A stretch of 64,000 nt of DNA. Origin: Litoreibacter albidus. Lineage in GTDB: Bacteria > Pseudomonadota > Alphaproteobacteria > Rhodobacterales > Rhodobacteraceae. Below the pieces are notes generated by a model that was not told the DNA's origin, did no database searches, and saw nothing but the letters and a program-made list of their open reading frames with translations. The translations under genes and the position numbers were made by a program. Below are positions 6,625 through 20,972 of this stretch, in pieces. The stretch covers positions 62,001 to 126,000 of the forward strand of contig NZ_FNOI01000007.1 in assembly GCF_900107015.1 (NCBI RefSeq). The letters are read 5' to 3'. Numbering within the stretch: the stretch's first letter is position 1; every line of letters starts with the position of its first letter.

Positions 6625-6649
6625 GGGGCAGTAGGCGACTACTGCTCCC
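6625..6649. terminator. Terminator between convergent creatinase and secretion operons
   Basis: GGGGCAGTAG pairs with CTACTGCTCCC around loop GCGA, with one bulged base. Read on the minus strand the stem is followed by TTTT, so it should end the type I secretion operon, and it may also stop creatinase transcripts. It overlaps the stop codon of the membrane-fusion gene. Confidence 0.7.
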
Positions 6650-7979
6650 TAAACGCGCGGTTCATGCTGTCGGTGATAGGTTTCATCAAGTACTGAAAGA
6701 ACGTCCGCGCTTCGGTCTGAATCATGATCTCTGCGGGCATGCCCGGCGTGGGGGAGAAGCCCCTAACGCGGTCCAGCTGTTCTGGCGACACGGATACGCG
6801 GGCGATGTACACCTCCTGCGGCATCTCTTGGCGGCGGTCGAGGATGGCATCGGCAGAGACATAAAATACCTGACCCTCGAGTATTGGCGTCGTGCGTGCG
6901 TTCAACCCTGTGAGGCGAACGGTGGCCATTTGCCCTTGCTGAACGACGTCGACTTCGGTGCGCGGCACGCTGGCCTCAATGATCAGCGGCTCGCCCGATG
7001 GCAAAATCTCCGCAATGGGCTTACCGCTCTCAATAACGCCGCCGGCGGTGTGATAATGCAGCGTGACAACGGTGCCAGACACCGGCGCTAACACCTCCGA
7101 GCGCCGCAGTATGTTCTCCGCGCGGCGGGCCTGCTCGCTGACGCTTTCCAGTTCTGATTGCACAAGTTGCAACTCATCTAGCGCGGCACTTTGCCGTTCG
7201 CTGATGGTCTGGGCGATCTGGGCCTCGTAGCGCTTGGTCACCTCGGTTATCTCGCTGATCTCCGCAGTGAGACGCCCGACCTGACCTTGGGCTTCTGCGA
7301 TAGCACGCCGGAGCGCGTTGACCTCCGTGCGCCGGATCAGGCCACGATCCAGCAGTTCCTGCTTGCTCTCTAAATCCTCATGAAGAATTTCAAGCTGGGT
7401 GCGGGTTGCGTCAAGCTGGTAGCCGTAGCCGGAGGAGCGAACGGTCAAGGCTTCGATGCTTTGTTCAAGTAGCACGATATCGTTTTTTAGTTGGCGGGCG
7501 GCGGCGTCGAACGTCACTTTCTGGCTGTCCAGCATGGACGCAATGCTGAAATCAGACCGTAGGGTTTCGATGTGTGGCGGGAACACAAGTCGCTCCGCGC
7601 CGCTGTGCTCCGCAAGAATGCGTACCTCCATCGCCTCTAGGCGGATCTGCCGTAGGAAGAGTTCGCGTTCCGTCGCTAAGGCAGCGGTTTCGTCCAGTAG
7701 CAGGATTGGCTGGCCGGCGGTGACGGTGTCGCCTTCCTCAATAAGGATTGAGTTAATGATGCCGCCCTCAAGGTGCTGCACAATCTTGTTGCGGCCTGTC
7801 GCTACAAAGCTGCCTTGCGCGATAACGGCGGCCGCCAACGGGGCCCGTAAGGCCCACGCACCGAAACCACCAAAAGACAGGACGAACAGAAGTAGCCCGA
7901 AGATCATGTGCTTGCTGACGGACCGCGGGACGTCGTCATACCATTCGGCGGGGGCTGTGTGGAGGGTGACATTAGACAT
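6639..7979 (-). CDS. Type I secretion membrane-fusion protein (HlyD/PrtE family)
   Basis: Periplasm-spanning adaptor linking the inner-membrane ABC exporter to an outer-membrane channel (446 aa). It has a short cytoplasmic N-terminus, one membrane helix (MIFGLLLFVLSFGGFGAWAL), a first lipoyl-like strand set (GTVTAGQPILLLDE region), a long coiled coil (about residues 110-290), then VLAPVSGTVVTLHYHTAGGVIESGKPIAEILP and a C-terminal beta-barrel. The ATG at 7979 overlaps the last 8 bp of the upstream ABC gene, so the two are coupled. An in-frame extension to 8102 merely reads the ABC gene out of frame. No TolC homologue is present in the window, so the channel must be encoded elsewhere. Confidence 0.92.
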   Translation of the reverse strand: MSNVTLHTAPAEWYDDVPRSVSKHMIFGLLLFVLSFGGFGAWALRAPLAAAVIAQGSFVATGRNKIVQHLEGGIINSILIEEGDTVTAGQPILLLDETAALATERELFLRQIRLEAMEVRILAEHSGAERLVFPPHIETLRSDFSIASMLDSQKVTFDAAARQLKNDIVLLEQSIEALTVRSSGYGYQLDATRTQLEILHEDLESKQELLDRGLIRRTEVNALRRAIAEAQGQVGRLTAEISEITEVTKRYEAQIAQTISERQSAALDELQLVQSELESVSEQARRAENILRRSEVLAPVSGTVVTLHYHTAGGVIESGKPIAEILPSGEPLIIEASVPRTEVDVVQQGQMATVRLTGLNARTTPILEGQVFYVSADAILDRRQEMPQEVYIARVSVSPEQLDRVRGFSPTPGMPAEIMIQTEARTFFQYLMKPITDSMNRAFREQ

Positions 7980-10038
7980 TTGGTTGGCCTCCTGGCCCGC
8001 TTTGCCCACCTTGTGCAGGGGGAAGGTTGCCGTTTTGCTGGTTGCGCTGGGCAAGTTGTTGCAGCACCTGCTGGCGGTAGCCGAACATCGCGATGTTGCC
8101 ATCCGCCATCAGCATGATCTTATCGACCACGCTAAGAAGGGACGGCTTTTGGGTGATGACGACAACGGTGATGCCGTTCTGGCCCGCGTGCTGAATTGCG
8201 TTCGCCAAAGCGCGGTCCCCCGCGGTGTCTAGGTTCGAGTTGGGCTCATCCAGCACCAGCAGGCGCGGGTTGCCAAAGAACGCACGGGCCAACGCAATGC
8301 GCTGCTTCTGACCGCCCGACAGGGGGGAGCCGTCGGCCTGCACCATCGTCTCATAGCCGTGGGGTAACATCGCGATCATATCGTGGACGTCGGCCAGCAT
8401 GGCGGCGCGATGAACGTCCTCGTCGCTGGCTCCGGCGCGCATGCGGGCGATGTTTGCTTTGATGGAGCCGGGGAACAGCTGCACGTCTTGCGGCAAGTAT
8501 CCGATGTTTTCGCCAAGCTGGCGCGGATCCCAATTGCGCAAATCCATCAGATCAAGCCGTACGTTGCCAGAAGTGGGAAGGATCGACCCCACAAGCATTT
8601 TACCCAGCGTGGTCTTCCCCGCGCCGGAGTTGCCGATGACGCCCAAGGACTCACCGGGGTTCAGGCCGAAGGTAAGCCCGTTCAGGATCACCTGCTTGGT
8701 GCCGGAGGGGACGAAAAGCAACCGCTCTACGTTCAGGCGGCCCTCGGGGTTTGGCAGAACCAGCTTCTCAAACCGTTGCACGGAGTTATGCATCAGCGCG
8801 CGCACCCTGTCATAGGCAGAGCGCGACATGATGAAACCGTTCCAGCCTTCAATAGCACCCTCAATGGGCGCGAGGGCGCGGCCTGCGATGATCGACGCCG
8901 CGATGACCATGCCGCCGGTGATCTCGCCTTGGATGGCCAGATAGGCCCCCCAGCCCAGCATGGCGATCTGCGTAAGCAGACGCGCGGCGCGGGACACCGC
9001 CGCCCACGCGATGTTGCGGTCTTGCGCGCTGACTTGGGAGCGCAACGAGTCTGCGGTATCCTTACCCCAGAGCGCTACAGCCTCGGGAACCATGGCCAGC
9101 GCATTAATGATCTGGCTGTTGCGGGTCATCGAATCCAGATGCATGTTGGCCTTGCTCTGCGCCAGATTTGCGGCGGCAAAGGGCTTGGCAGTGACCTTTT
9201 GGTTGATCATGGCAATGACCATCAAGATCACGGCAGTAGTGACAACGATCATGCCCAGATGCGGATGGACGAGAAAAATCGCAAAGATGAAGAACGGCGC
9301 GAACGGCACGTCTAGAAACGAGATCAAGGTGCCGGAGGTCAGGAACCCCCGTAGCAACTGCAAGTCGCCCAAGGTCTGATACTGGCGTCCATTGTCTTGC
9401 AAAGATGCGTGGGCGGCCGCGCTTAGCACGGGGGCGCCGAGGCGCACCGCGACCTCCACCGCCGTGCGCATCAAGATGAACCTGCGCACGGCGTCAAACA
9501 CCGCCTGCAACACCACCGCGCCGACAATCACCGTGGTGAGCATTACCAATGTGTCGAGCGAACGACTGGTGAGCACCCTGTCAGAGATTTGAAACAGATA
9601 GATAGGGATCGCCAGTACCAGCAAGTTTGTGGCGCATGTCAGCAGCATTACAAAGGACAGATTGCGCCTGACGATCCGCGTGCCCGCATGAAGTTGCTGG
9701 ACGAATTGGTCGGGCGCTGCGCGTTTGTGAAAGCTGGGGGTGCCCCCGCCACCACCGCCGCCGCCACCTTTGCCACCACCATCGGAGGTCGGGGGCTTGC
9801 CGCCGCCGTCGGATTTCAGGATCGGTCCTGTGTCCCCCTCGATCTGGTCGCCGCCCAGTCCTTTGGCGCGCATTGGCGCGTCGTTGCGTTTGCTTTTGAA
9901 CGCAAGAGGGTCTTGCGGGTTGACCCGCAAATCGGGCGTCAGCGGCAGTGGTTCTGCTTTGCGTGCGGTGGGCGAGGCGTCGTGGGTTTTAGATGCAGGC
10001 GCGGCTTTTGCGAAGCTCTTGGTATCATTCAATGTCAT
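7972..10038 (-). CDS. Type I secretion ABC transporter, permease-ATPase (PrtD-like)
   Basis: Exporter that moves proteins from cytoplasm to the type I channel (688 aa). Residues 1 to about 115 form a disordered extension with a run of ten glycines; family members normally start close to the first helix. A six-helix permease domain follows (LSFVMLLTCATNLLVLAIPIY onward). The ATPase has Walker A GNSGAGKTT (Lys475), signature LSGGQKQR and Walker B LLVLDEP with its catalytic Glu. The switch (H-loop) position reads VVVITQKPSLL: Gln630 stands where family members carry His. The gene lies 17 bp after the 669-aa repeat protein gene, which makes that protein a likely substrate. Confidence 0.92.
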   Translation of the reverse strand: MTLNDTKSFAKAAPASKTHDASPTARKAEPLPLTPDLRVNPQDPLAFKSKRNDAPMRAKGLGGDQIEGDTGPILKSDGGGKPPTSDGGGKGGGGGGGGGTPSFHKRAAPDQFVQQLHAGTRIVRRNLSFVMLLTCATNLLVLAIPIYLFQISDRVLTSRSLDTLVMLTTVIVGAVVLQAVFDAVRRFILMRTAVEVAVRLGAPVLSAAAHASLQDNGRQYQTLGDLQLLRGFLTSGTLISFLDVPFAPFFIFAIFLVHPHLGMIVVTTAVILMVIAMINQKVTAKPFAAANLAQSKANMHLDSMTRNSQIINALAMVPEAVALWGKDTADSLRSQVSAQDRNIAWAAVSRAARLLTQIAMLGWGAYLAIQGEITGGMVIAASIIAGRALAPIEGAIEGWNGFIMSRSAYDRVRALMHNSVQRFEKLVLPNPEGRLNVERLLFVPSGTKQVILNGLTFGLNPGESLGVIGNSGAGKTTLGKMLVGSILPTSGNVRLDLMDLRNWDPRQLGENIGYLPQDVQLFPGSIKANIARMRAGASDEDVHRAAMLADVHDMIAMLPHGYETMVQADGSPLSGGQKQRIALARAFFGNPRLLVLDEPNSNLDTAGDRALANAIQHAGQNGITVVVITQKPSLLSVVDKIMLMADGNIAMFGYRQQVLQQLAQRNQQNGNLPPAQGGQSGPGGQPNV

Positions 10039-10055: not shown

Positions 10056-12065
10056 TTAGGCCAACATCGACTGCATCACATCAGAGGATGCGGTGCTTTC
10101 GGACGCGGTTGCGGTGATAGGTGCATCGGCGGGGCCCATGTCGGGGGTCATCATGTCGTCGGCTAGAAAAGCGACGGCCTCCGACGCGAGAGCAGGCATG
10201 TCGACGCCCAGCGGATCCGCGTTTGTGTCGATAAGCTCTGCTTGGTAGAGCAAGGCGTCGTCGTACACGTCGCCGTTCACGGACACTTCGGAATCCACGC
10301 CATAGGTGTTTATGCTGGCGATGTTCACCGTGGAGTTCGAGCCAGCGGTGACTGTCGCGCTGGTGCCCGTGGCCGCCTCAAAGCTGTCGAGCGCCAGATG
10401 CACCTGATCGGAGTCGCCCAAGATGTTTGTCTGCTCAATCCAGTTGATGGTGGTCAGGTCGCCCTCAATGTAGAGCACGCGCAGGATTTCAACGCCCTCA
10501 AAGACACTGTCATGCGCGACGCCAGTGCCAATGGATTGTGCGCCATCTGCTAGACTGTCGCTGGCGGAAGCGAAGTTGTCCTGCATCTCGCCGTAGCTGT
10601 CGACACCCACCGCATTGATGATCGCGCCGTTGAACAGCAGGTTGTCACTGCCGCTAAAGTCGCCCGCAACGTCGCCGGAATAGGTCACCGTATCGTTGTC
10701 GACCATCACGTTGACTTGGCTGATCCAATCAACGGATATCATGCTGCCACCGATCATGATCAGGTCGTAGCCGAACCCCAATTCGGCGAAGTCGGTCAGG
10801 TTTACCACCGTGTTGTCGCCCAAGCCGATGTAGGTGTTGGCGCTACTGAACGTGATTTCAGCGCGATCGTTGTCAGTGACGAAACTGTACTGGCTGATCT
10901 GGTTGACGCTGATCAAGTCACCCTCAATCCGCGTCACGGCCCAATTCGACGGCAAGCCCGTGGGTGGGGGCGCGGCGTCACCCTCGGCGTCCAGTGGCGG
11001 CGTTGTTGCCGTGATTGTATGTGTCACCGCGTTCATCACGGTGGACGTGCCCGCGTCCGCGAAAGTGCCGTAGTCGATATCCATCAGGACATTGATCTGC
11101 GCGACAACGCTGAGTTTGACCACGTCGCCCATCACCGAAATGACGGGGGCGTCGAGCCACGCGGAGGAGATCGCGACCTCGTTGATCAGGGAGTTTGCAC
11201 CGGCCACCACAGCGTGCCCGTCGTCTATTTCGGGGATCGTGTCGTCCCCCATGGCGGGGCTTAACCCGTCGAAGGGATCAGGCCAATCATGCCCATCCGC
11301 CTCATCGTCTGGCACATCGTCATCCTCAGTTTTGATCGCGGGCCAAAGGTCAGTAAGGGTGGGCAGTTCGTCGGTGTCATCACCGTTGACGTGTGTGCCT
11401 ATCGCATCGACGCCGTGCATCATATGGGCGGTAACACCAGACAGGGTCGACACCGTGGCGGCCCCTGCAAGCGTGTGGAGCGCTATTGCGTCCTCGGTTG
11501 CGGTTTTCCCCGGGATAAGCCTGTCCGCATCAAGCGGTGCCCCGATGGCCGCCGCCACAGTCTGCAGTTGTGCAATCTGCTCCCAGAATTCAGCAGGGTC
11601 GGTGAAGATGGTGTCGCCGTTGCCCAACATTAAGATGTCGTTATCGCTCAGATACGCGGCTTGTGAGGTGATAACGGCGACGCTGGCGGGTGGATCAAGG
11701 ATCAGCTGCGGACGCCCGCCACCGCCGGTAATCTGCATGTAGATAGAAAGCGAGTTGGCAGGGGCTTCGTTGATGAAGGGCAGGGCGGCGGAGAGGCCGG
11801 TTAGGTCTGCGAAGAACGGGCTTGATACCTCGGAGGCCGGACCGATGGGCGGCCCCTCGGAATACCGCAGGTTGGGCGTGTAGCCATCAAGTGTATACTT
11901 TGCTTGGAAAGTAAGACCGGGCGCGGCTAGAGGATCACTGTCGGGATCCGCCGCTTGGAGCGCCTTAAATTTATCGTAGGCATCACGCATACGCGCTTCT
12001 TCAATGCCGGTATGAAATATACCAATCATGTGAGCGACCATTTCGGTCATTTTGTCCATTAACAT
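10056..12065 (-). CDS. Repeat protein encoded with the type I exporter, candidate secreted substrate
   Basis: I do not recognise a named family in this 669-aa acidic protein. No Sec signal peptide is visible. The N-terminal half is mixed. From residue 313 a 19-residue core recurs: Gly-Asp at the start, Gln at +10 and Asp at +16 and +18. Copies begin at residues 313, 382, 440 and 535, with a weaker fifth at 598; the pattern is GDhhxhxxhxQxNhhxDxD. Asn-containing strand pairs lie between copies. The Asp pairs could bind calcium, but the classic RTX nonapeptide is absent. The ribosome site GCGAGG precedes the ATG. It is first in an operon with the ABC exporter and membrane-fusion genes. Export by them is inferred. 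Confidence 0.75.
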   Translation of the reverse strand: MLMDKMTEMVAHMIGIFHTGIEEARMRDAYDKFKALQAADPDSDPLAAPGLTFQAKYTLDGYTPNLRYSEGPPIGPASEVSSPFFADLTGLSAALPFINEAPANSLSIYMQITGGGGRPQLILDPPASVAVITSQAAYLSDNDILMLGNGDTIFTDPAEFWEQIAQLQTVAAAIGAPLDADRLIPGKTATEDAIALHTLAGAATVSTLSGVTAHMMHGVDAIGTHVNGDDTDELPTLTDLWPAIKTEDDDVPDDEADGHDWPDPFDGLSPAMGDDTIPEIDDGHAVVAGANSLINEVAISSAWLDAPVISVMGDVVKLSVVAQINVLMDIDYGTFADAGTSTVMNAVTHTITATTPPLDAEGDAAPPPTGLPSNWAVTRIEGDLISVNQISQYSFVTDNDRAEITFSSANTYIGLGDNTVVNLTDFAELGFGYDLIMIGGSMISVDWISQVNVMVDNDTVTYSGDVAGDFSGSDNLLFNGAIINAVGVDSYGEMQDNFASASDSLADGAQSIGTGVAHDSVFEGVEILRVLYIEGDLTTINWIEQTNILGDSDQVHLALDSFEAATGTSATVTAGSNSTVNIASINTYGVDSEVSVNGDVYDDALLYQAELIDTNADPLGVDMPALASEAVAFLADDMMTPDMGPADAPITATASESTASSDVMQSMLA

Positions 12066-12174
12066 CGCAGCCTCGCTTTGAGTTAATTTGAGCGCTCTCC
12101 TCGGGTCGTTTCTTGGTTTTGTTGCGCAGAATGTAGCGGGTCGATTAAAAAGGTAGCTTGTCTAAATATGGGGT

Positions 12175-12200
12175 CCGAGCCCGACTCTCATCGGGCTCGG
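12175..12200. terminator. Terminator-like hairpin after the Asn/Gly-rich gene
   Basis: CCGAGCCCGA (12175-12184) and TCGGGCTCGG (12191-12200) form a perfect 10-bp stem with a 6-base loop, 16 bp beyond the stop of the minus-strand 576-aa gene. There is no strong T-run, so it may be a terminator or a stabilising mRNA end. It separates that gene from the secretion operon. Confidence 0.65.
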
Positions 12201-12216
12201 AGATCGTTTCTAAGGC

Positions 12217-13947
12217 TTATGCGCCGTCGCCATCGTCGCCGATGTAGCTGGAGCTGAACGAGCCGCCAACAACCGTCATATCGACAGTGTTGCCAAGCAC
12301 GTTGGCACCTTGCACGATGGTCTGGTTGAACGCAGATGTATCAATCTGCGAAGCTGCGGATGCGAAGGACTCGCCGGTGACATAACCGTCATCACCGTTG
12401 CCCGAGCCCCACATGCCAGCGTTGCCACCAGCACCGCCGCCGCCAGCGTAAGCGTCACCGCCCGCGCCACCAACTCCGCCGCCAGCTTGGACGCCGCCGA
12501 CTTGAGCTTGGCCGCCAAACGCATCGCCAGAGCCACCGCCCCAAGCGTGTCCGCCGTAGCCGTCACCACCTGCGCCGCCGTTGGCTGCGTTCTGTCCGCC
12601 GTAGCCAGCCGTGCTGTTCATCGCACCGGAGATTGCACCAGCGTCGCCGCCGCCGCCGCCGTTTGCGTTCCCAGCGTCAGCCAGTCCAGCACCCATGCCG
12701 GTTGCACCGGACATAGCACCGGCACCACCGCCGTCACCGCTTGCACCGAGGCCAGCACCAAAGCCAGCACCTAATGCGTCTGCGTCGGCTTCACCGGTGG
12801 AGCCATTGTTCGCTCCGGCAAGGCCAAGGCCTAACAGGCCAAGTCCGGCGCCAAGGGCACCTGCGTCGCCTGTGTTGCTGCTGTCTGCACCAGCACCGGC
12901 TGCACCGATCCCTGCGCCAACACCGCCAGCGATACCAGAGTCGCCGCCTTCAGCGTTTGCACCTGACAAGGCAGTTCCTGCGCCAAGTCCAGCCGCCAAT
13001 GAAGCAGCGTCGCCGCCTTCACCACCAGATGTACCAGCACCGGAGGACGCGCCCCCAAGGCCGACACCTAGGCCGACAGCAGTACCAGCCGCACCTGCGC
13101 CACCTGAGCCACCTGCTGCACCGGCGTGACCGCCGTTACCGCTTGCGCCACCAGTTGCACCAGCTGCACCGCCGATACCAAGACCACCTACGGCCCCGCC
13201 ACCGTCAGCGTAAGCTGACCCGTTGCCTTTGCCTCCGTCTGCACCGGCAGAGATGCCGTCGTCAGACTTCGCGTGACCACCGGAGGAGTCATTGTCCTGC
13301 TGGAGGTTGCCGCTGTTGGACACATTGTCCAGCACGTCGTTGTCCGTCAGTTTGTTCGACTGCGTGTTGACCGTTGCGGAGTCGTTGCCAGCGCCGTTCA
13401 GGGCATCGTTCAAGATGTCCTCGATGTTCATGTCATCGCCGGGGCTGTAGTTCATATCGCCATTGGACATGACGATATCGTCGATGTTGCTGCCAGTCAT
13501 ATCAATGTCGGCAAAATCATCGTCGGTCGGCACCCAACCCGCCATGTTCAGGTCGACATCAACGTCGACATCCGTGGTGGAGGTGTTGTGGTTTGCGTTC
13601 AGGTTGCCATTCAGGTTCCCGTTCAGGTTGCCATTGGCGTTGCCGTTCGCATTTCCGTTTCCGTTGGAGTTGCCGTTTGAGTTACCGTTACCGTTATGGT
13701 TCCCATTCCCGTTGCCGTTCAGGTTACCATTTCCGTTCAGGTTGCCATTCCCATTGCCGTTCCCGTTGTGATTGCCGTTGTCGTTATCGTTATCACTGTT
13801 GGAGGACTGGTGCTGGCCTTGACCCTGACCTTGCAGCTGGGCCTGTAGTTCGGCCTGCGCTTGCAGCTGGTCTTGATCCTGATTCTGGTTTTGATCTTGA
13901 TGACCGTGGCCGCCTATCGGGAAGAAAAAGTTGTTCTTGTTAGACAT
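12217..13947 (-). CDS. Gln/Asn-rich then Gly/Ala-rich low-complexity protein, candidate matrix protein
   Basis: A 576-aa protein with no enzymatic domain. Order: a short head (MSNKNNFFFPIGGHGH), a Gln-rich stretch at about 17-47, and a stretch at 57-121 in which every second residue is Asn (33 Asn alternating with Gly, Leu, Ser, Ala or His). Next come an Asp-rich stretch (TDVDVDVDLN) with several Asn/Asp turns, then about 300 residues of Gly, Ala and Ser. The C-terminal tail is NQTIVQGANVLGNTVDMTVVGG. This tail resembles the repeat core of the neighbouring 669-aa protein (Gln, Asn, hydrophobic-Leu-Gly, Asn/Asp). The composition is prion-like or amyloid-like and suits a secreted scaffold. It lacks a signal peptide, so export by the adjacent type I system is an inference. 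GGAG precedes the ATG. Confidence 0.8.
   Translation of the reverse strand: MSNKNNFFFPIGGHGHQDQNQNQDQDQLQAQAELQAQLQGQGQGQHQSSNSDNDNDNGNHNGNGNGNGNLNGNGNLNGNGNGNHNGNGNSNGNSNGNGNANGNANGNLNGNLNGNLNANHNTSTTDVDVDVDLNMAGWVPTDDDFADIDMTGSNIDDIVMSNGDMNYSPGDDMNIEDILNDALNGAGNDSATVNTQSNKLTDNDVLDNVSNSGNLQQDNDSSGGHAKSDDGISAGADGGKGNGSAYADGGGAVGGLGIGGAAGATGGASGNGGHAGAAGGSGGAGAAGTAVGLGVGLGGASSGAGTSGGEGGDAASLAAGLGAGTALSGANAEGGDSGIAGGVGAGIGAAGAGADSSNTGDAGALGAGLGLLGLGLAGANNGSTGEADADALGAGFGAGLGASGDGGGAGAMSGATGMGAGLADAGNANGGGGGDAGAISGAMNSTAGYGGQNAANGGAGGDGYGGHAWGGGSGDAFGGQAQVGGVQAGGGVGGAGGDAYAGGGGAGGNAGMWGSGNGDDGYVTGESFASAASQIDTSAFNQTIVQGANVLGNTVDMTVVGGSFSSSYIGDDGDGA
13585..13779 (-). repeat. Degenerate hexanucleotide repeat encoding alternating Asn-X
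   Basis: About 32 tandem hexamers, each one Asn codon plus one variable codon (Gly, Leu, His, Ser or Ala), seen on the plus strand as variants of gttnccntt. Repeat units differ at wobble positions, which slows but does not prevent slippage. Copy-number changes would lengthen or shorten the Asn-rich stretch in steps of two residues without shifting frame. Confidence 0.85.
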
Positions 13948-14771
13948 GTTGGTATCTCCGTAAATGACACCTACGGGACCGCCACTCTATCAAAGGCGAC
14001 CAACGTGTAGATGCTGTATGGGATTGATGTTTGGTTTTGGGAACGTCGGACGATGACTCGATCCAAGGTTCACATGCTTCTGGATTAAATGCTTCTCGTT
14101 GGCAGTACCCCCAATGTTCAAGTCTCTCAGAGCAGGAGCGCAACAAGGTGATTCGGGCGAAATGCCCCGATGATGCCCCCCGAACCGGCACCTAATGTGG
14201 CATCGGCGATCACGTTGAATTCGTGATTGGCTTAGCTTCTACCGACTGGGCTGACTTCGTAAGCTGGACATAGGGTTAACGAATTAGCGACCCCACACTG
14301 CTTTGTTTTTGGGGGATAAAATCGGGAAAGTTATCGAAAGGTGTAGGCGAAATTTGCCTATTTTATAGTTATTTCGATATGAAAAATGGCCCACTTGAGG
14401 CGGGGATGTGCCGAGGATGCGACAAAGAAGTGGCGGACAAATGCCGGATTTAGTGATAGGTTAAAAAACAGTTAAGCGTTTTGGCAGGCGCCTTCGAATG
14501 CCTGTTTTGAGCGCAGTTCAGTTTTTGAATTTAGTTTTAAGTTAAGCGCGGGTGTTTCTGGGAAGCTTTGTTTACCCGATGACCGGATCACCCCGAAAGA
14601 GCCACCATAAGGTGGCCGGCACGCCTGTAATCCCTGCCTGACACGCTATACCCGCGTTTAGGGCAGTGAGCGAACGGCGCTCATTATCGGGAACATTGTA
14701 GCAAGACCCTTGGCGCCGTTTGTTTAGCGGCTGCCTGAATAATTAGTTATTAGTTAGATGAGTAAGCAGAT
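13948..14771. other. Long non-coding regulatory region between the matrix-protein gene and luxR
   Basis: About 820 bp with no convincing gene; an 83-codon open frame on the minus strand at its left end has no family resemblance and overlaps the start of the 576-aa gene. The part from about 14270 to 14570 is clearly more AT-rich than the flanks. Visible elements are GTTAAGCG twice, at 14471 and 14541, exactly 70 bp apart; a dyad GCCACC-ATAA-GGTGGC at 14601-14616; and a dyad TGAGCG-AACGG-CGCTCA at 14667-14683. It must hold the divergent promoters for both flanking genes and is long enough for a small RNA. Confidence 0.6.
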
Positions 14772-15491
14772 ATGAAACTTGCTGAGAAAAATATGAATGC
14801 CAAAACCGTCGGTTGCGTGTTTGTTGGCAACCCGCTGAGTTTTTCGGACACGGCGCTTAAACTTGTTGAAACGGAATTACCGTGCATCAGTTGTATCCGG
14901 ACAGCTGCAGTTAATGATCTTCTTTTAATGGGGGAGGCACGCACAAATGCGGTGCGCCTTATTATCGTAGATGAATCCATGCTGGAGAATTTGGCTAAGG
15001 CCCTGCCGCAACTTCGCGAGGCCTTCCCGATGGCAAGCATCGCGCTCGCATTTCGCAACACTGAAATCGCACGCAACTTGGTGGTGCGTTTGCAAACGGA
15101 CGCATCATGGGGGCAAGTCGGCTTCCTGCCGATGAACATTAACCTCGATTTCTGGCTGTCGGTTGTGCGCCTGTTGGCGGCAGGCGAATGCTATTTTCCA
15201 GCGGAACTTTTCGTGCGCAATCAGCCGGTATCGGAAGCCCCTGTTCAGCAAGAGGCCCAACCAGACAACGCCCGGGAATTGCACCCCTGCGAAGCGGTTC
15301 ATCTTACCACGCGGGAGTTGCAGGTGCTGGAGTCTGCGGCTGAGGGCAAGCAGAACAAAATCATTGCGGATGAATTGCAGCTGTCGCAGCACACCGTGAA
15401 ACTGCACATGCATCACATCATCGCCAAGCTGGGTGTTCACAACCGGACCGAGGCCGCGAATTGGTATCACCGACGTAATCCAGACGGGTGA
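14772..15491 (+). CDS. LuxR/CsgD-like transcriptional regulator with pseudo-receiver
   Basis: A 239-aa regulator. The C-terminal 60 residues are a LuxR-type helix-turn-helix (LTTRELQVLESAAEGKQNKI, then ELQLSQHTVKLHMHHIIAKL). The N-terminal half has the alternating strands and helices of a response-regulator receiver and keeps an Asp in LIIVDESM. It lacks the paired acidic residues expected near the N-terminus, so phosphorylation is doubtful, as in CsgD. Its position between the matrix-protein gene and the polysaccharide genes suggests that it controls one or both. The start is weakly supported; an ATG at 14793 is an alternative. Confidence 0.85.
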   Translation: MKLAEKNMNAKTVGCVFVGNPLSFSDTALKLVETELPCISCIRTAAVNDLLLMGEARTNAVRLIIVDESMLENLAKALPQLREAFPMASIALAFRNTEIARNLVVRLQTDASWGQVGFLPMNINLDFWLSVVRLLAAGECYFPAELFVRNQPVSEAPVQQEAQPDNARELHPCEAVHLTTRELQVLESAAEGKQNKIIADELQLSQHTVKLHMHHIIAKLGVHNRTEAANWYHRRNPDG

Positions 15492-15504
15492 GGAGGCAGG
15501 GCCG

Positions 15505-16005
15505 ATGACCAAGGCGCAGGGCGCTATAGATTTTGACGCCTTCTTGCTGCTGATCGGCAAGCTCAACTACAGCTGGACCAACACCGAAAGCCTGCTGATC
15601 CATCTGATCGCGGGCCTATCGGGCATGGACAAAGAAATCGCCACCGTGGTGTTCCTGACGCTAAACACCACACGCGCGCGCATCGACATGGTGGAGCGTC
15701 TGGCCAAGTTGGACCGCATCGCACCAGAGGAGCGCGCGCGTATTCTGGCGCTGACGGGGCGGATACAACGTCAATCGGCGCTGCGAAACCGGTACAATCA
15801 CTGCATTTATGCATTCGACAGCGATGGCGATAACCCGCGCTCCATCCTCATGCGGATAGCGGACCGCAAGGACAGATTGATGATGGGGCAGGTCAACGAC
15901 CTGGACGCTGCGGCCGCAGAAGACGTTCGCGCGGCGATCGGTGAACTCCAGTCAATCAACCGCGACATATGGCAAACAGTGAGCGATCTTAACTACCCGG
16001 ACTAG
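15505..16005 (+). CDS. HEPN-like helical protein of unknown function
   Basis: A 166-aa, probably all-helical soluble protein. The ATG at 15505 follows a strong site (GAGGAGG), so it is clearly translated; an open frame extends upstream into luxR but without support. The sequence RNRYNH (Arg94 to His99) sits after a long helix and fits the R-x4-H signature of HEPN nucleases and nucleotide-binding proteins. Around it are LLIGKLNYSWTNTESLLIHL and TRARIDMVERLAKL. The gene begins 13 bp after luxR and points toward the polysaccharide genes. Nuclease activity is only a possibility; many HEPN proteins are inactive. No toxin-antitoxin partner of the MNT type is adjacent. Confidence 0.7.
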   Translation: MTKAQGAIDFDAFLLLIGKLNYSWTNTESLLIHLIAGLSGMDKEIATVVFLTLNTTRARIDMVERLAKLDRIAPEERARILALTGRIQRQSALRNRYNHCIYAFDSDGDNPRSILMRIADRKDRLMMGQVNDLDAAAAEDVRAAIGELQSINRDIWQTVSDLNYPD

Positions 16006-16221: not shown

Positions 16222-17238
16222 GTGACTATTTTTACGTCGAACATTCACTCTCAAACGCGCCATGGTGTGCGCCGCATCTTGGTTGCTGGCGGTGCGGGCT
16301 TTCTGGGAAGTCATCTGTGCACGAAACTGATTAAAGACGGGCATCGGGTTGTTTGTGTCGACAACTTCCTGACTGGCCGTAGATCAAACATCGAACACCT
16401 GCTGACCCATCCCAGATTTAAGCTGATACGGCATGACATCATAGAGCGCTTGCCCGCCTTGGGGCCAGTGGACCAAATCTACAACCTAGCTTGCGCAGCC
16501 TCGCCACCAAAATACCAGTCGGACCCGCTTCATACGTTCAAGACCAATGTGATCGGTGCGATGAATCTTTTGGAAATAGCTGAGCGCAACAATGCGACGA
16601 TCCTGCAATCCTCCACCTCGGAGGTTTACGGCGATCCAGAGGTCAGCCCCCAGCCGGAGGGATACCACGGCAACGTGAACACCGTTGGTCCGCGATCCTG
16701 CTACGACGAAGGCAAACGCGCGGTTGAAACGCTGTTTTATGAGTACCATTTGCAGCGGGGTGTTAGTACTCGCATAGCGCGCATCTTCAACACCTATGGG
16801 CCGCGCATGTCACCCAGTGACGGGCGCGTTGTGTCCAACTTTGTGGTGCAAGCTTTGGCGGGCGATGACGTGACCGTCTTCGGCGATGGCAGCCAGACAC
16901 GGTCCTTCTGCTACATCAGCGACATGGTGCGCGGACTGATGGCCTTGATGAACGCGCCAGACAGCGTTTGCGATCCGGTCAACCTGGGCAATCCGACAGA
17001 GTTCACCATTCTGGAGCTGGCGCAGACGGTCATTGAGACGTTGGCATCGCCATCGCGCGTGGTGTTCTCACGGCTGCCTGTCGATGACCCCAAACAACGC
17101 AAGCCCGATATTTCGCGCGCGGCGGAATGCTTGGGCTGGGCGCCTCACGTGCCGCTTGCCGAAGGCTTGGTACAGAGCATTCCCTACTTCGCAGCAGAGG
17201 CGGTGCGTGCGCCTCTGAGATTGGTGGTCGCTGAATGA
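16222..17238 (+). CDS. UDP-glucuronate decarboxylase-like NAD-dependent epimerase/dehydratase
   Basis: An extended short-chain dehydrogenase (338 aa) of the UXS type, which turns UDP-glucuronate into UDP-xylose. It has the nucleotide-binding [11 protein letters not shown], the family segment [14 protein letters not shown], the serine-rich STSEVYGDP, and the catalytic Tyr/Lys of [18 protein letters not shown] and [10 protein letters not shown] are further family marks. The start is GTG at 16222 after GGGGGTAACAA. Its stop overlaps the next ATG (ATGA). It probably supplies a nucleotide sugar for the membrane glycosyltransferase encoded two genes later. A dTDP-glucose dehydratase role is less likely given the SPPKYQ segment. 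Confidence 0.88.
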
Positions 17239-18236
17239 AAAAGGCGCGGTCCATATGTTTAACCGGTGGCGCGGGCTATATCGGCAGCCACGCCTGCCTT
17301 GCGCTTGCGGCGCGGGGGGCGAAGCCGCTGGTCGTGGATAATCTGGTGACGGGATCGCGGGATGCGGTTGAATGGGGACCGCTGGTCGAACTGGACATCC
17401 GCCATACGGAGGAACTCACCCAAGCTTTGCTCGCACGGGCGGTCGACACGGTTTTGCACTTCGCGGCCTCGGCCTATGTCGGGGAATCCGTGACCAACCC
17501 ACGGGCCTATTATGAGAACAACGTCGGCGGTATGTTGTCCTTGCTGACAGCCTGCGCTGCAGCAGGTGTGAAAACCTTTGTCCTTTCAAGCAGCTGCGCC
17601 ACTTACGGCGTGCCGAAGACGGTTCCGGTAACGGAAACCACGCCACAGCAGCCCATCAACCCTTACGGGATGACGAAGTTGATGTGTGAGCAGATGTTGA
17701 AAGACATCGCCCCACAGACGGGCATGTCCTACGGGATATTGCGGTACTTCAACGTCGCGGGTGCGGACGTTAGCGGCATGTTGCGCGAACGCCATGACCC
17801 AGAGACACATCTAATCCCACTGACCTTATTCGCCGCCGCCGGATGGACGCAGGGCCTCAAGTTGTTCGGGGATGACTACGACACAGAAGACGGAAGCTGC
17901 ATCCGCGACTATGTGCATGTATCGGATTTGGTCCACGGACACATGCTGGCTCTCGAACACCTGAGTGCGCAGGGCGGGAGCCTGACGCTCAATCTTGGGA
18001 GCGGCCGTGGGACGTCCAACTTCGAGATTGTAGAGATGGTGGAGCGATTGACGGGGCGATCCGTCCCAGTGGAGATTGCGCCCCGCCGTGCTGGCGACCC
18101 GCCCATGCTGGTCGCTGACACCTCGCTTGCGTATGAAACTCTAGGGTTCAAGCCGCAGCGGTCTGATCTGGCGACTATTGTGGCGGACGCCGCACGTAGT
18201 TTCGGGGTGGAGGCTGTTCATGCAATTTCGGCCTGA
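17235..18236 (+). CDS. galE: UDP-glucose 4-epimerase
   Basis: Interconverts UDP-glucose and UDP-galactose (333 aa, typical length). It has the NAD-binding [14 protein letters not shown], the segment [22 protein letters not shown], the serine site SSSCATYG, the catalytic Tyr/Lys of NPYGMTKLM, and the C-terminal mark [14 protein letters not shown]. Translation is coupled to the upstream decarboxylase gene, and the 3' end overlaps the glycosyltransferase start by 17 bp. The operon context points to sugar-nucleotide supply for an exopolysaccharide. A UDP-glucuronate or UDP-xylose epimerase specificity cannot be excluded. Confidence 0.92.
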
Positions 18237-20073
18237 CCCCTTAACACGCCCCAGCGAAACCTTTCGCCAAGCTATCCTGACGGGGCGCCGACGCACCAAA
18301 TACAGGATGGTCATCAGCGCGTGGGTAGTCTGCGCGGCCTTCTTTTGGTTGTGGTGGTTGCGGCCGGAACACAACATCGGCTGGGGCCGCTACTTGCTGG
18401 TGAGCGCGTGCCTGTTCTGGATTTTCTTCTTACAAGCATATTTTTTAGCCATGTTCATGCGGGCGCAGCAGGTGGCGAAAAATTTCGCGGTAACGGGCGA
18501 CTGGCGCGTGGCAATGGTGGTGACCAAAGCCCCTGCGGAGCCGTTTGAGGTGGTGCGGGAAACCTTGCTGGCAATGCTGGCGCAGGACGTGGCGCACGAC
18601 ACATGGCTCGCCGATGAAGACCCGCAACCTGCCGCGGTTGCATGGTGCGAAGCCAACGGCGTCAAGATATCCACGCGCAAGGGTGTGGAGGCCTATCACC
18701 AAGCGCATTGGCCGCGCCGGACCCGCTGCAAGGAAGGCAACCTAGCCTATTTCTATGACCACTACGGGTACGAACAGTACGACATAGTCGCCCAACTGGA
18801 CGCAGATCACGTGCCGCAACCCGGTTACCTGCGCGAGATGCTACGGCCCTTCGCCGACCCGAACATAGGCTATGTCAGCGCCCCCAGCATTTGTTCGCAG
18901 AACGCTGAAATGAGTTGGGCGGCTCGCACGCGCTTGCACGCCGAGGCGATGTTCCACGGGGTTCTGCAAGCTGGCTATTCCAATGGATGGGCCCCGATGT
19001 GCATCGGCTCCCACTATGCGGTTCGGACGAAGGCTTTACGCCAGATCGGTGGGTTGGGGCCGGAGCTGGCGGAGGATCACTCCACCTCCATGTTGATGAA
19101 CGCGGCAGGGTGGCGGGGCATGCACGCGATGGACGCTATTGCTATCGGGCAGGGCCCCGCCAACTTGTCCGATCTTGTGACACAAGAGTTCCAATGGTCG
19201 CGCAGTCTGTTGACGTTGTTGCTGTCGCATACTCCGCGGTACCTACGCACGTTGCCGGCCCGCCAGAAATTTCAGTTCGTGTTCTCGCAGCTTTGGTATC
19301 CGATCTTTGCGGTGTTCATGGCGACGCTATTCGTGATGCCCATCTGTGCGCTGTTGTTTGATGTGCGGTTTGTGGGGGTTATGTATCCCGCCTTTGTGGC
19401 GCATATCTTGCCGACCGTCATCATGCTGCTGTTACTTGCCTACCTTGTAAGGGCCGACAAAATGTTCCGACCCTATGACGCTAAAATTCTGGGTTGGGAG
19501 AAGGCGTTGTTTGCCGCGTTGCAATGGCCGTGGGTTCTGTGGGGCTGCGTGATGGCGCTGCGTGATAAGCTCACGGGCAACTTCGTCGATTTTCGCGTGA
19601 CGCCCAAAGGGGAGGCCGCGTCGTCGGTGGTGCCATGGTCGGTGCTGGCCCCGTACTTTGTGCTGGCTCTGGTGTCCTTGCTGCCGGTGATCTTCGCCAA
19701 GGACGTGTCGCAAGCTGCCGGTTTCTACATCTTCGCGCTGGTCAATGCCGCGATCTACACCAGCCTGTTTGCCATTATCGTTGTGAACCACTTGCGAGAG
19801 AACCCGATGTTGCACCGCAGGGTCACGGGAACCTTAGGCGCGCAGTTCGGCTGCATCGCGGTGCTGACCGCAGCGATCGGTTACGGCACGGTCGCGCAGG
19901 GCAGTGACGCGATTATTGCCTTGGCGACGACGGGCGGTGAGGTGCGCTTTATTCAGTCCGGCTTCGTCGTTGCGGGCGCGGGGCAGGGCAGGCGCGGACA
20001 AGTCCACGTCAGCTATAACTCGAACTGGCTATCAGACCTTATTTCAAACATGGATATTAGGAAGGGAAAGTAA
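18220..20073 (+). CDS. Membrane glycosyltransferase family 2 (cellulose synthase-like)
   Basis: A processive-type inner-membrane polysaccharide synthase (617 aa). Two N-terminal helices (VVCAAFFWLWWL and YLLVSACLFWIFFLQAYF) precede a GT-A domain with the metal-binding LDADHVPQPGYL and the ED of LAEDHSTSML. QEFQWSRSLLTLL corresponds to the QxxRW product-binding motif but reads QxxQW. Four to five C-terminal helices form the translocation channel region. The ATG at 18220 follows GTGGAGG; the upstream in-frame start would only read galE out of frame. It is followed by a GH26-like hydrolase, a common partner of synthases. The polymer is unknown; beta-linked glucose, mannose or xylose backbones are candidates. 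Confidence 0.88.
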   Translation: MQFRPDPLTRPSETFRQAILTGRRRTKYRMVISAWVVCAAFFWLWWLRPEHNIGWGRYLLVSACLFWIFFLQAYFLAMFMRAQQVAKNFAVTGDWRVAMVVTKAPAEPFEVVRETLLAMLAQDVAHDTWLADEDPQPAAVAWCEANGVKISTRKGVEAYHQAHWPRRTRCKEGNLAYFYDHYGYEQYDIVAQLDADHVPQPGYLREMLRPFADPNIGYVSAPSICSQNAEMSWAARTRLHAEAMFHGVLQAGYSNGWAPMCIGSHYAVRTKALRQIGGLGPELAEDHSTSMLMNAAGWRGMHAMDAIAIGQGPANLSDLVTQEFQWSRSLLTLLLSHTPRYLRTLPARQKFQFVFSQLWYPIFAVFMATLFVMPICALLFDVRFVGVMYPAFVAHILPTVIMLLLLAYLVRADKMFRPYDAKILGWEKALFAALQWPWVLWGCVMALRDKLTGNFVDFRVTPKGEAASSVVPWSVLAPYFVLALVSLLPVIFAKDVSQAAGFYIFALVNAAIYTSLFAIIVVNHLRENPMLHRRVTGTLGAQFGCIAVLTAAIGYGTVAQGSDAIIALATTGGEVRFIQSGFVVAGAGQGRRGQVHVSYNSNWLSDLISNMDIRKGK

Positions 20074-20972
20074 TGCTACCCCTCATGCATAAAAAGACCA
20101 TTGGTGCTGGCGCTTTGATTGGCGCGATGATGATTGCTGCGCCTGTCATGCCGCAGTCACTGCCACCAGGCGATATTCCCTTTGGCGTCTTCGATCCGAG
20201 CGGCGATTTTAGCGACGTGACAGGCATCGCAATCGAGCACCTGTTTTTGCCATGGGAAGACGTGTTCTTGCCCAGTTTGGCTGAGGCCGAAACCTACTCC
20301 AAGGACCGTGGGCGATCTTTGCTTGTGACGATTGAGCCTTGGACGTGGACCCGCGACGAGCGCAATTCACCAGCTGTTCTACAAGCCGGTATCGCGGCGG
20401 GTGTGTACGACGAGACGATGACAACAGTGTGCTCCTCGCTCGGCTCGCTAGGGCGCCCATTAACGATCCGTTGGGCGCAAGAGATGGACGACGAAAGTGG
20501 GCAATTCATCTGGGCCGGATGGGCGCCGCAAACCTATGTGGACGCGTACCAAAAGATGATCGACATCTGTCGCGTGTCTGCACCTAATGCGTCTTTCATG
20601 TGGTCGCCCTTGGGGTTCGAGGACATGGCGGATTACTATCCCGGTGACGATTACGTCGACGTGGTAGGGCTGTCAGTGTTCAGCTTGGGGCCGTGGGAAA
20701 AGCAGGTACTCGGTGAGGAGCAGTCCTTCGATGATATCTTCGCCCCGCGCTACGCCCGTGCCCAAGAATTCGGAAAACCCATCATGATTGCGGAGCTGGG
20801 CTTCACTGGCGACGAGGAACACATGGCCCTTTGGGAGGCAGACGTGCGCAGCAAGTCCGCGCAATATCCTGAGTTGGACGCAGTGATCTATTTTAACCAG
20901 CGAGAAGTCTATCCATGGCCAAATGGATTCGGATTACCTGATTGGCGGCGCCCGCAAAACGTGACGAACTGA
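20073..20972 (+). CDS. GH26-like periplasmic glycoside hydrolase
   Basis: A 299-aa protein with an N-terminal signal segment (GAGALIGAMMIAAPVMPQS) and a TIM-barrel hydrolase. RWAQEMDDESGQF contains the probable acid/base Glu and MIAELGF the probable nucleophile Glu, the spacing and context of clan GH-A family 26 enzymes (mannanases and lichenases). The start codon overlaps the synthase stop (TAATG), preceded by GGAAGGGAAA. Such hydrolases encoded with synthases trim or release the nascent polymer in the periplasm. Substrate specificity cannot be told from the sequence. Confidence 0.82.
   Translation: MLPLMHKKTIGAGALIGAMMIAAPVMPQSLPPGDIPFGVFDPSGDFSDVTGIAIEHLFLPWEDVFLPSLAEAETYSKDRGRSLLVTIEPWTWTRDERNSPAVLQAGIAAGVYDETMTTVCSSLGSLGRPLTIRWAQEMDDESGQFIWAGWAPQTYVDAYQKMIDICRVSAPNASFMWSPLGFEDMADYYPGDDYVDVVGLSVFSLGPWEKQVLGEEQSFDDIFAPRYARAQEFGKPIMIAELGFTGDEEHMALWEADVRSKSAQYPELDAVIYFNQREVYPWPNGFGLPDWRRPQNVTN

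Follow-up and report, generated by a model that had tools for sequence, protein, structure and literature searches.

The Litoreibacter albidus genome encodes, beside a type I exporter, a protein (gly) rich in alternating Gln/Asn-X pairs and in Gly/Ala, which raises the question of whether so simple a protein is itself the cargo of the pump and, if so, what it would form outside the cell. The locus was analysed in a 64,000-nucleotide stretch of contig NZ_FNOI01000007.1 (hereafter the window), for which a first-pass annotation had proposed gly as a new class of structural type I substrate. The strictly alternating Asn region that it placed at residues 57–121 turned out to be slightly longer, with 35 pairs at residues 53–122, and was indeed preceded by a Gln-rich stretch (longest Gln-X run, residues 16–31) and followed by a Gly/Ala body (residues 236–510; 41% Gly and 24% Ala, or 65% Gly/Ala). 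A 35-pair Asn-X run was reached by none of 5000 shuffles, of either the whole protein or its first 125 residues, and the mixed codons of the tract (27 AAC and 8 AAT for Asn; GGC 8, GGG 5, GGA 3 and GGT 3 for Gly) rule out a slipped DNA repeat. The open reading frame (12217–13947, minus strand) is conserved in frame among relatives, and its product contains no Cys, no Arg and 4 Lys, with no hydrophobic N-terminus found. Neither the window gly nor the 669-aa protein encoded behind it (par) had a Pfam or NCBIfam match at E 0.1, in agreement with the earlier statement that gly has no enzyme domain, and the same held for the lack of RTX repeats, as four scattered GGxGxD strings occur in the Gly body with no tandem array. 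Glycine zippers were also considered and rejected, since the 16 GxxxGxxxG strings in the Gly body were a count reached by 1452 of 2000 shuffles. The structure model of gly had a mean pLDDT of 42.6 and no confident fold.

The locus consists of a p190-luxR pair divergent from gly-par-ABC(PrtD)-HlyD (Table 1). Lying between gly and the exporter, par is likely a second substrate that the first-pass annotation had missed. The type I secretion operon reported beside gly was verified as a PrtD-type ABC transporter (TIGR01842, 691 bits versus a cut-off of 510) and an HlyD-type adaptor (TIGR01843), the start of which was set at an internal Met by comparing relatives, the longest reading frame reaching 8102. 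Because the nearest other ABC transporter in the same genome is 39% identical, the exporter looks dedicated to this locus. A TolC profile matched in only 8 of 80 loci. Of the CsgD-like regulator, the LuxR-type helix-turn-helix (GerE) and linker stood, these being common to NarL, VpsT and others, while the assignment to CsgD did not (47.3 bits versus a cut-off of 250).

Table 1. Coordinates of the locus features in the window.
Feature	Position	Strand	Basis
gly, 576-aa Gln/Asn-X, Gly/Ala-rich protein, predicted major substrate	12217..13947	-	ORF and family comparison
gly Gln-X rich tract, residues 16-47	13807..13902	-	composition
gly Asn-X tract, residues 53-122, 35 pairs	13582..13791	-	composition
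gly acidic middle domain, conserved, residues 123-239, VNxQxNxLxDND motif resembling par half-repeat	13231..13581	-	alignments
gly Gly/Ala body, length very variable among relatives	12418..13230	-	composition, relatives
gly C-terminal module, conserved, residues 511-576; candidate export signal and par-like half-repeat	12217..12417	-	
RNA hairpin behind gly, 12-bp stem and 4-nt loop in the window, covarying	12174..12201	-	
par, 669-aa repeat protein, predicted beta-rich, C-terminus DVMQSMLA, predicted second substrate	10056..12065	-	
Type I secretion ABC transporter, PrtD type	7972..10038	-	TIGR01842
HlyD-type periplasmic adaptor	6639..7979	-	TIGR01843
Candidate regulatory element, 24 bases, gly-luxR gap, common to a subset of relatives	14256..14279	.	
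luxR, LuxR-type regulator, divergent	14772..15491	+	Pfam (GerE), NCBIfam
p190, conserved protein, no convincing family, likely start about 15505	15433..16005	+	

The sixth gene product, p190, is conserved at 57% mean column identity across 26 sequences. A Pfam scan of these 26 members returned HTH_30 in four (best E 0.0072) and DUF7620 in one (E 0.005), and a PDB sequence search with the p190 profile gave flagellin matches only, at E 0.26 or worse. It carries an RNRYNH-like stretch, which we take to be reminiscent of HEPN motifs, and may serve in regulation or assist secretion. Neither Pfam nor NCBIfam offered a convincing family for gly, par or p190, the NCBIfam search covering the family members of par and the window protein alone for gly and p190.

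Homologues with the same neighbours were recovered throughout. Matches to the gly C-terminal profile were found in 34 of 394 genomes of the family, and all 34 also contained par, luxR and p190, with par adjoining gly in every one. Scanning 13–20 kb around each locus with profiles of the neighbour genes found ABC and HlyD in 32 of the 34; the remaining two stop at a contig edge behind par, L083 after 162 bases and L031 after 598 bases, and in the latter an open frame starts, by eye, with MKDY, as do the ABC genes of L026, L029 and L030. The exporter was thus present wherever the contig reaches, and no homologue was found away from a type I exporter in the loci examined, so that the refuting outcome named in the first-pass annotation did not arise there. 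For seven loci (L029, L069, L072, L076, L081, L082 and L086), owing to the HMM bias filter, the presence of gly rests on the homologue search together with the gly C-terminal profile. The two genes were inherited together: of 81 genomes, counting the own one, 8 contained gly and the same 8 contained par. In a class-wide draw, the gly C-terminal profile matched 2 of 385 genomes, namely the own genome and a weak match of 24 bits in another family (L094), and the par profile matched the same two; by profile, the L094 locus contains p190, par, ABC and HlyD and lacks luxR.

A profile search of genome contigs with the par alignment, requiring one par peptide pattern, extended the survey to the best 80 of 94 relatives, which came from Octadecabacter, Litoreibacter, Sulfitobacter, Phaeobacter, Tritonibacter, Roseovarius, Ruegeria, Thioclava, Limimaricola, Paracoccus, Mesorhizobium, Nitratireductor, Fulvimarina, Roseibium and others. 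These 80 named loci overlap with the family set, as 19 of them have a par identical to that of a family-set locus. Found by par, the best 80 of 94 contained gly in 79, ABC in 78, HlyD in 78, luxR in 75 and p190 in 74, and each missing gene, checked one by one, falls beyond a contig end. All six genes were found in 72 named loci, with the same order and orientation in 71 of them, the exception being L128, in which the p190-luxR pair is located behind HlyD. The distances of par, ABC, HlyD, luxR and p190 correlated at 0.72–0.86, values that have no species-tree baseline and from which nothing is inferred.

Plasmids carry the locus as well, par being detected on 31 of 72,556 plasmid records, including those of Sulfitobacter, Ensifer, Sinorhizobium and Paracoccus, where it is annotated as a hypothetical protein or as 'type I secretion protein ATPase', or is unlisted in an incomplete gene table. 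The ATPase label was met on a Sulfitobacter faviae plasmid (L186:9001-11109), and the sequence of that par homologue gives it no support. By profile, luxR is missing from three of four Rhizobiaceae plasmid loci and from L094, so the LuxR-type regulator is not universal for the system. In the own genus, the locus occurs in 6 of 21 genomes, with gly 81–87% identical to the window protein in three and about 40–60% identical in pieces in two. This patchy presence and uneven identity, together with plasmid carriage, suggest that the locus has spread by horizontal transfer. No published description of it was recognised in the literature covered, from which subscription journals are largely missing, and one may be in print.

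The polysaccharide genes reported beside gly were present in the window, in which sugar-nucleotide and glycosyltransferase functions (UDP-glucuronate decarboxylase-like, galE, cellulose-synthase-like GT2 and GH26 genes) occupy positions 16222–20972. As a rule for the locus the adjacency did not stand: a strong GT2 match adjoins 9 of 80 named loci, beside p190 or HlyD in two arrangements, and sugar genes also adjoin the locus on two Sulfitobacter plasmids. A general polysaccharide linkage is unsupported by this minority of loci, and a sugar-gene link, if any, would be recurrent but optional.

Across 79 relatives, gly ranges from 237 to 1460 aa in length. At least five alternating Q-X or N-X pairs lie within the first 160 residues in 71 of the 79 (0.9 expected by shuffling), or in 72 when the N-terminal part up to an anchor is counted, and the tract beats all 200 own shuffles in 67; the proteins are all distinct, with many close relatives among them, so this count does not amount to 79 independent events. 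The alternating tract is a trait of the gly family, while the alternating residue (Q-X, N-X or both) is free. Near-invariant positions in the family alignments lie mainly in the middle domain and the last 65 residues, the C-terminal module following the pattern WGSxNGDDG...AFNQxIVxGANVLGNxVDMTVVGG; the Asn tract was rejected as the conserved core, which is formed by these middle and C-terminal parts. The Gly/Ala body is optional, because members span the whole length range and a distant pair of ∼285 aa is nearly devoid of it. Cys is absent from 72 of 79 gly proteins, and the median computed pI of both the gly and par families is 4.05, the floor of the method. For folding, 41 of the 79 proteins were aligned; a Pfam scan of these 41 gave scattered weak matches (best E 0.0037; TrAA12 in two, SARAF in one), and a PDB sequence search with the gly C-terminus profile gave 0 matches.

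Tandem gly genes were observed in three places. In L094, from another family of the class, two gly-like genes of ∼285 aa lie in tandem, almost without a Gly body and retaining a long Q-X tract, an acidic motif, a Q...DND motif and a GANIQFN ending. Tandem duplicates also occur in Roseibium aggregatum (L173; 237 and 251 aa) and in Rhodobacteraceae bacterium Alg231_04 (L129; 488 and 547 aa).

The second protein is of a different make. An alignment of 66 par proteins displayed near-invariant Gly, Asn, Gln and Asp with repeat spacing, in the motifs G-x-N-x3-N-x-A and I-x-Q-x-N-x-L-x-D-x-D, and an Asp is found at position -8 of the C-terminus in 79 of 80. The 66 were drawn from 81 proteins (the window and 80 named loci), leaving out the partial L104, close relatives, repeats and very long proteins; the par alignment A3 covered 33 of 40 loci. 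The AlphaFold2 model of par (mean pLDDT 77.6; 316 of 669 residues at 90 or above) is mostly beta with long strands, ending in a low-confidence tail with a short helix. Foldseek against the PDB yielded no significant fold match for this model, which is no proof of a new fold; FapC (E 0.44) and CsgA (E 0.46) topped the list, with a TM of about 0.05, and the PDB sequence search with the par profile gave 0 matches. Only scattered weak matches came from the Pfam scan of the 66 (best E 0.011), and the NCBIfam scan matched the LapA retention module in one of the 66 (E 0.0029); the repeat family Curlin_rpt (PF07012) was detected in none of the window proteins and in one of the 66 par (E 0.083), and was absent from the families listed for the 41 gly. 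A LapG-like [TAP]AA[GV] string occurs in 4 of 80 par N-termini.

The two proteins resemble each other in short motifs. Against par, the gly C-terminal motif scored 37.9 over 34 columns (maximum of 150 column shuffles, 23.3; hhalign probability 77%) and the middle motif 31.6 over 21 columns (maximum of 150 column shuffles, 21.2; hhalign probability 22%), and the probability was 3% for the gly C-terminus against the last par repeat alone. The middle motif and the C-terminal module are read here as putative half-repeats shared with par; convergence on a simple motif could also produce such likeness.

Between gly and par, a GC-rich hairpin with an 11–12-bp stem and at least as strong as -20 kcal/mol was found in all 77 gaps, at a median 16 nt past the gly stop. 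These gaps represent 77 of 81 loci (the window and 76 named), the contig ending within gly in L104, L135, L142 and L174. In control stretches of equal length at the same threshold, such hairpins occurred in none of 77 upstream of gly, none of 77 at the 3′ end of gly and 3 of 77 inside par, and in 14 of 74 past HlyD, a region in which terminators would be expected. Counting from the loop, stem positions 1–11 are canonically paired in between 70 of 74 and 77 of 77 loci even though the letters change, chiefly by exchange of GC and CG and, at most positions, to AT or TA as well, and the twelfth position is paired in 49 of 67; choosing hairpins by energy favours pairing, and the controls were chosen identically. 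Because a U-run is clear behind some hairpins, these may be terminators, while behind most it is unclear or absent. A comparable hairpin lies between cistrons of the puf operon, in the same bacterial order, and was reportedly the subject of work by Klug in 1987. In the available part of a report on Rhodobacter, segmental mRNA stability contributes to the subunit stoichiometry of puf (PMC6238624). The puf genes differ in serving photosynthesis, and by this analogy alone the hairpin suggests an excess of gly over par. In the gly-luxR gap, the 24-base element TTCGTAAGCTGGACATAGGGTTAA at 14256–14279 has at least 16 matches in 10 of 74 gaps, one being the window's own (shuffles, 0 of 74), and is a possible regulator site.

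On balance, and with moderate confidence, we read gly and par as dedicated non-RTX substrates of the adjoining PrtD/HlyD exporter that would build a matrix or fibre, with gly as the major and par as the minor component. The earlier idea of a structural type I substrate thereby gains support from genes, motifs and RNA, and is altered in its unit, which is a pair of proteins instead of one. In the proposed course, the LuxR-type regulator would switch the gly-par operon on, and the hairpin would protect the upstream gly message, so that gly would be produced in excess of par. Both proteins, acidic and nearly Cys-free, would then exit unfolded via ABC-HlyD and a TolC-type channel, presumably guided by C-terminal signals. 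Outside the cell, par would fold to a repeat beta structure that gly may join through its two par-like half-repeats, and the Q/N-X tract with the Gly/Ala body could supply a flexible, hydrated and cohesive part of a coat, fibre or biofilm matrix. More specifically and more tentatively, the locus may specify an unnamed two-subunit extracellular polymer of α-proteobacteria, secreted by the type I route, with par as a beta-repeat nucleator and gly as a split-repeat major subunit, its repeat divided by a Gly/Ala spacer that can expand freely and headed by the Q/N-X tract, in a ratio set by the hairpin.

Known systems share parts of this arrangement. Curli have a major and a minor subunit, with a short repeat in common that has Gln, Gly and Asn positions. 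On our reading, gly and par would resemble curli (CsgA/CsgB) and Fap in the major/minor pair, the shared short repeat and the adjoining LuxR-family regulator, whereas curli have their own export route and a type I exporter stands here instead. The features in line with a putative amyloid nature are composition and the predicted beta structure of par. With RTX/PrtD-type systems the locus has in common a PrtD-type ABC and HlyD adjoining acidic, Cys-poor proteins with no apparent Sec signal. The nonapeptide array is described as the defining RTX feature in the available part of a review (PMC3034196); in place of the tandem GGxGxDxUx array, only the four scattered strings are present in the window gly and none in par, and the two proteins have their own repeat with no Pfam or NCBIfam family found. 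By these comparisons, gly-par is provisionally classed with the type I-exported surface proteins as a variant of its own, distinct from curli, RTX and Cdz.

The Cdz system leads to a rival explanation, namely that gly and par form a contact-dependent bacteriocin of two Gly-rich, aggregating proteins that stay attached to the surface after type I export and are accompanied by an immunity protein. In the accessible sections of the Caulobacter report, CdzC and CdzD are likewise such a Gly-rich pair, aggregating on the surface after type I export, encoded in divergent operons and patchily distributed (PMC5380434), and the gly-par locus has a scattered distribution too (34 of 394 genomes) and is at times on plasmids. 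However, according to the same sections CdzC and CdzD are tiny toxins of 86 and 84 aa (PMC5380434), compared with the 237–1460 aa of gly, and among the products of the six genes neither a toxin so small nor a small membrane immunity protein was seen: strongly hydrophobic stretches were detected in 5 of 74 p190, 3 of 78 gly and 24 of 80 par, so p190 does not look like such an immunity protein. With GxxxGxxxG in the window Gly body not above chance either, we regard a Cdz-like role as quite improbable.

Two other explanations retain export and change what is exported or built, and both appear unlikely. If par alone left the cell, gly would remain in the cytoplasm as a disordered helper, holdase or adaptor for secretion, as would suit a protein whose model has no confident fold and whose export is predicted only; but gly has a conserved C-terminal module, the acidic and near-Cys-free composition and the par-like motifs, and exceeds 1000 aa in some relatives, unlike a helper. 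The other, to which we likewise give little weight, accepts both proteins as exported and has them form a coat, either amorphous or like an S-layer, or a matrix that binds polysaccharide, in each case lacking fibre or amyloid order. It draws on the same export evidence as the matrix-or-fibre reading and on the sugar genes that adjoin a minority of loci in two arrangements (GT2 in 9 of 80; two Sulfitobacter plasmids), while the predicted ordered, beta-rich par and the motifs common to it and gly favour a specific assembly.

By this analysis, three conserved families for which Pfam and NCBIfam have no convincing model become one testable system of marine roseobacters, Paracoccus, Mesorhizobium, Ensifer and others. 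Should gly and par be exported and assembled as proposed, type I secretion would gain a structural class made of two non-RTX proteins, and biofilm-forming bacteria a possible component of their matrix. With gly ranging from 237 to 1460 aa, its relatives would constitute a natural experiment on the effect of low-complexity Q/N-X and Gly/Ala tracts outside the cell.
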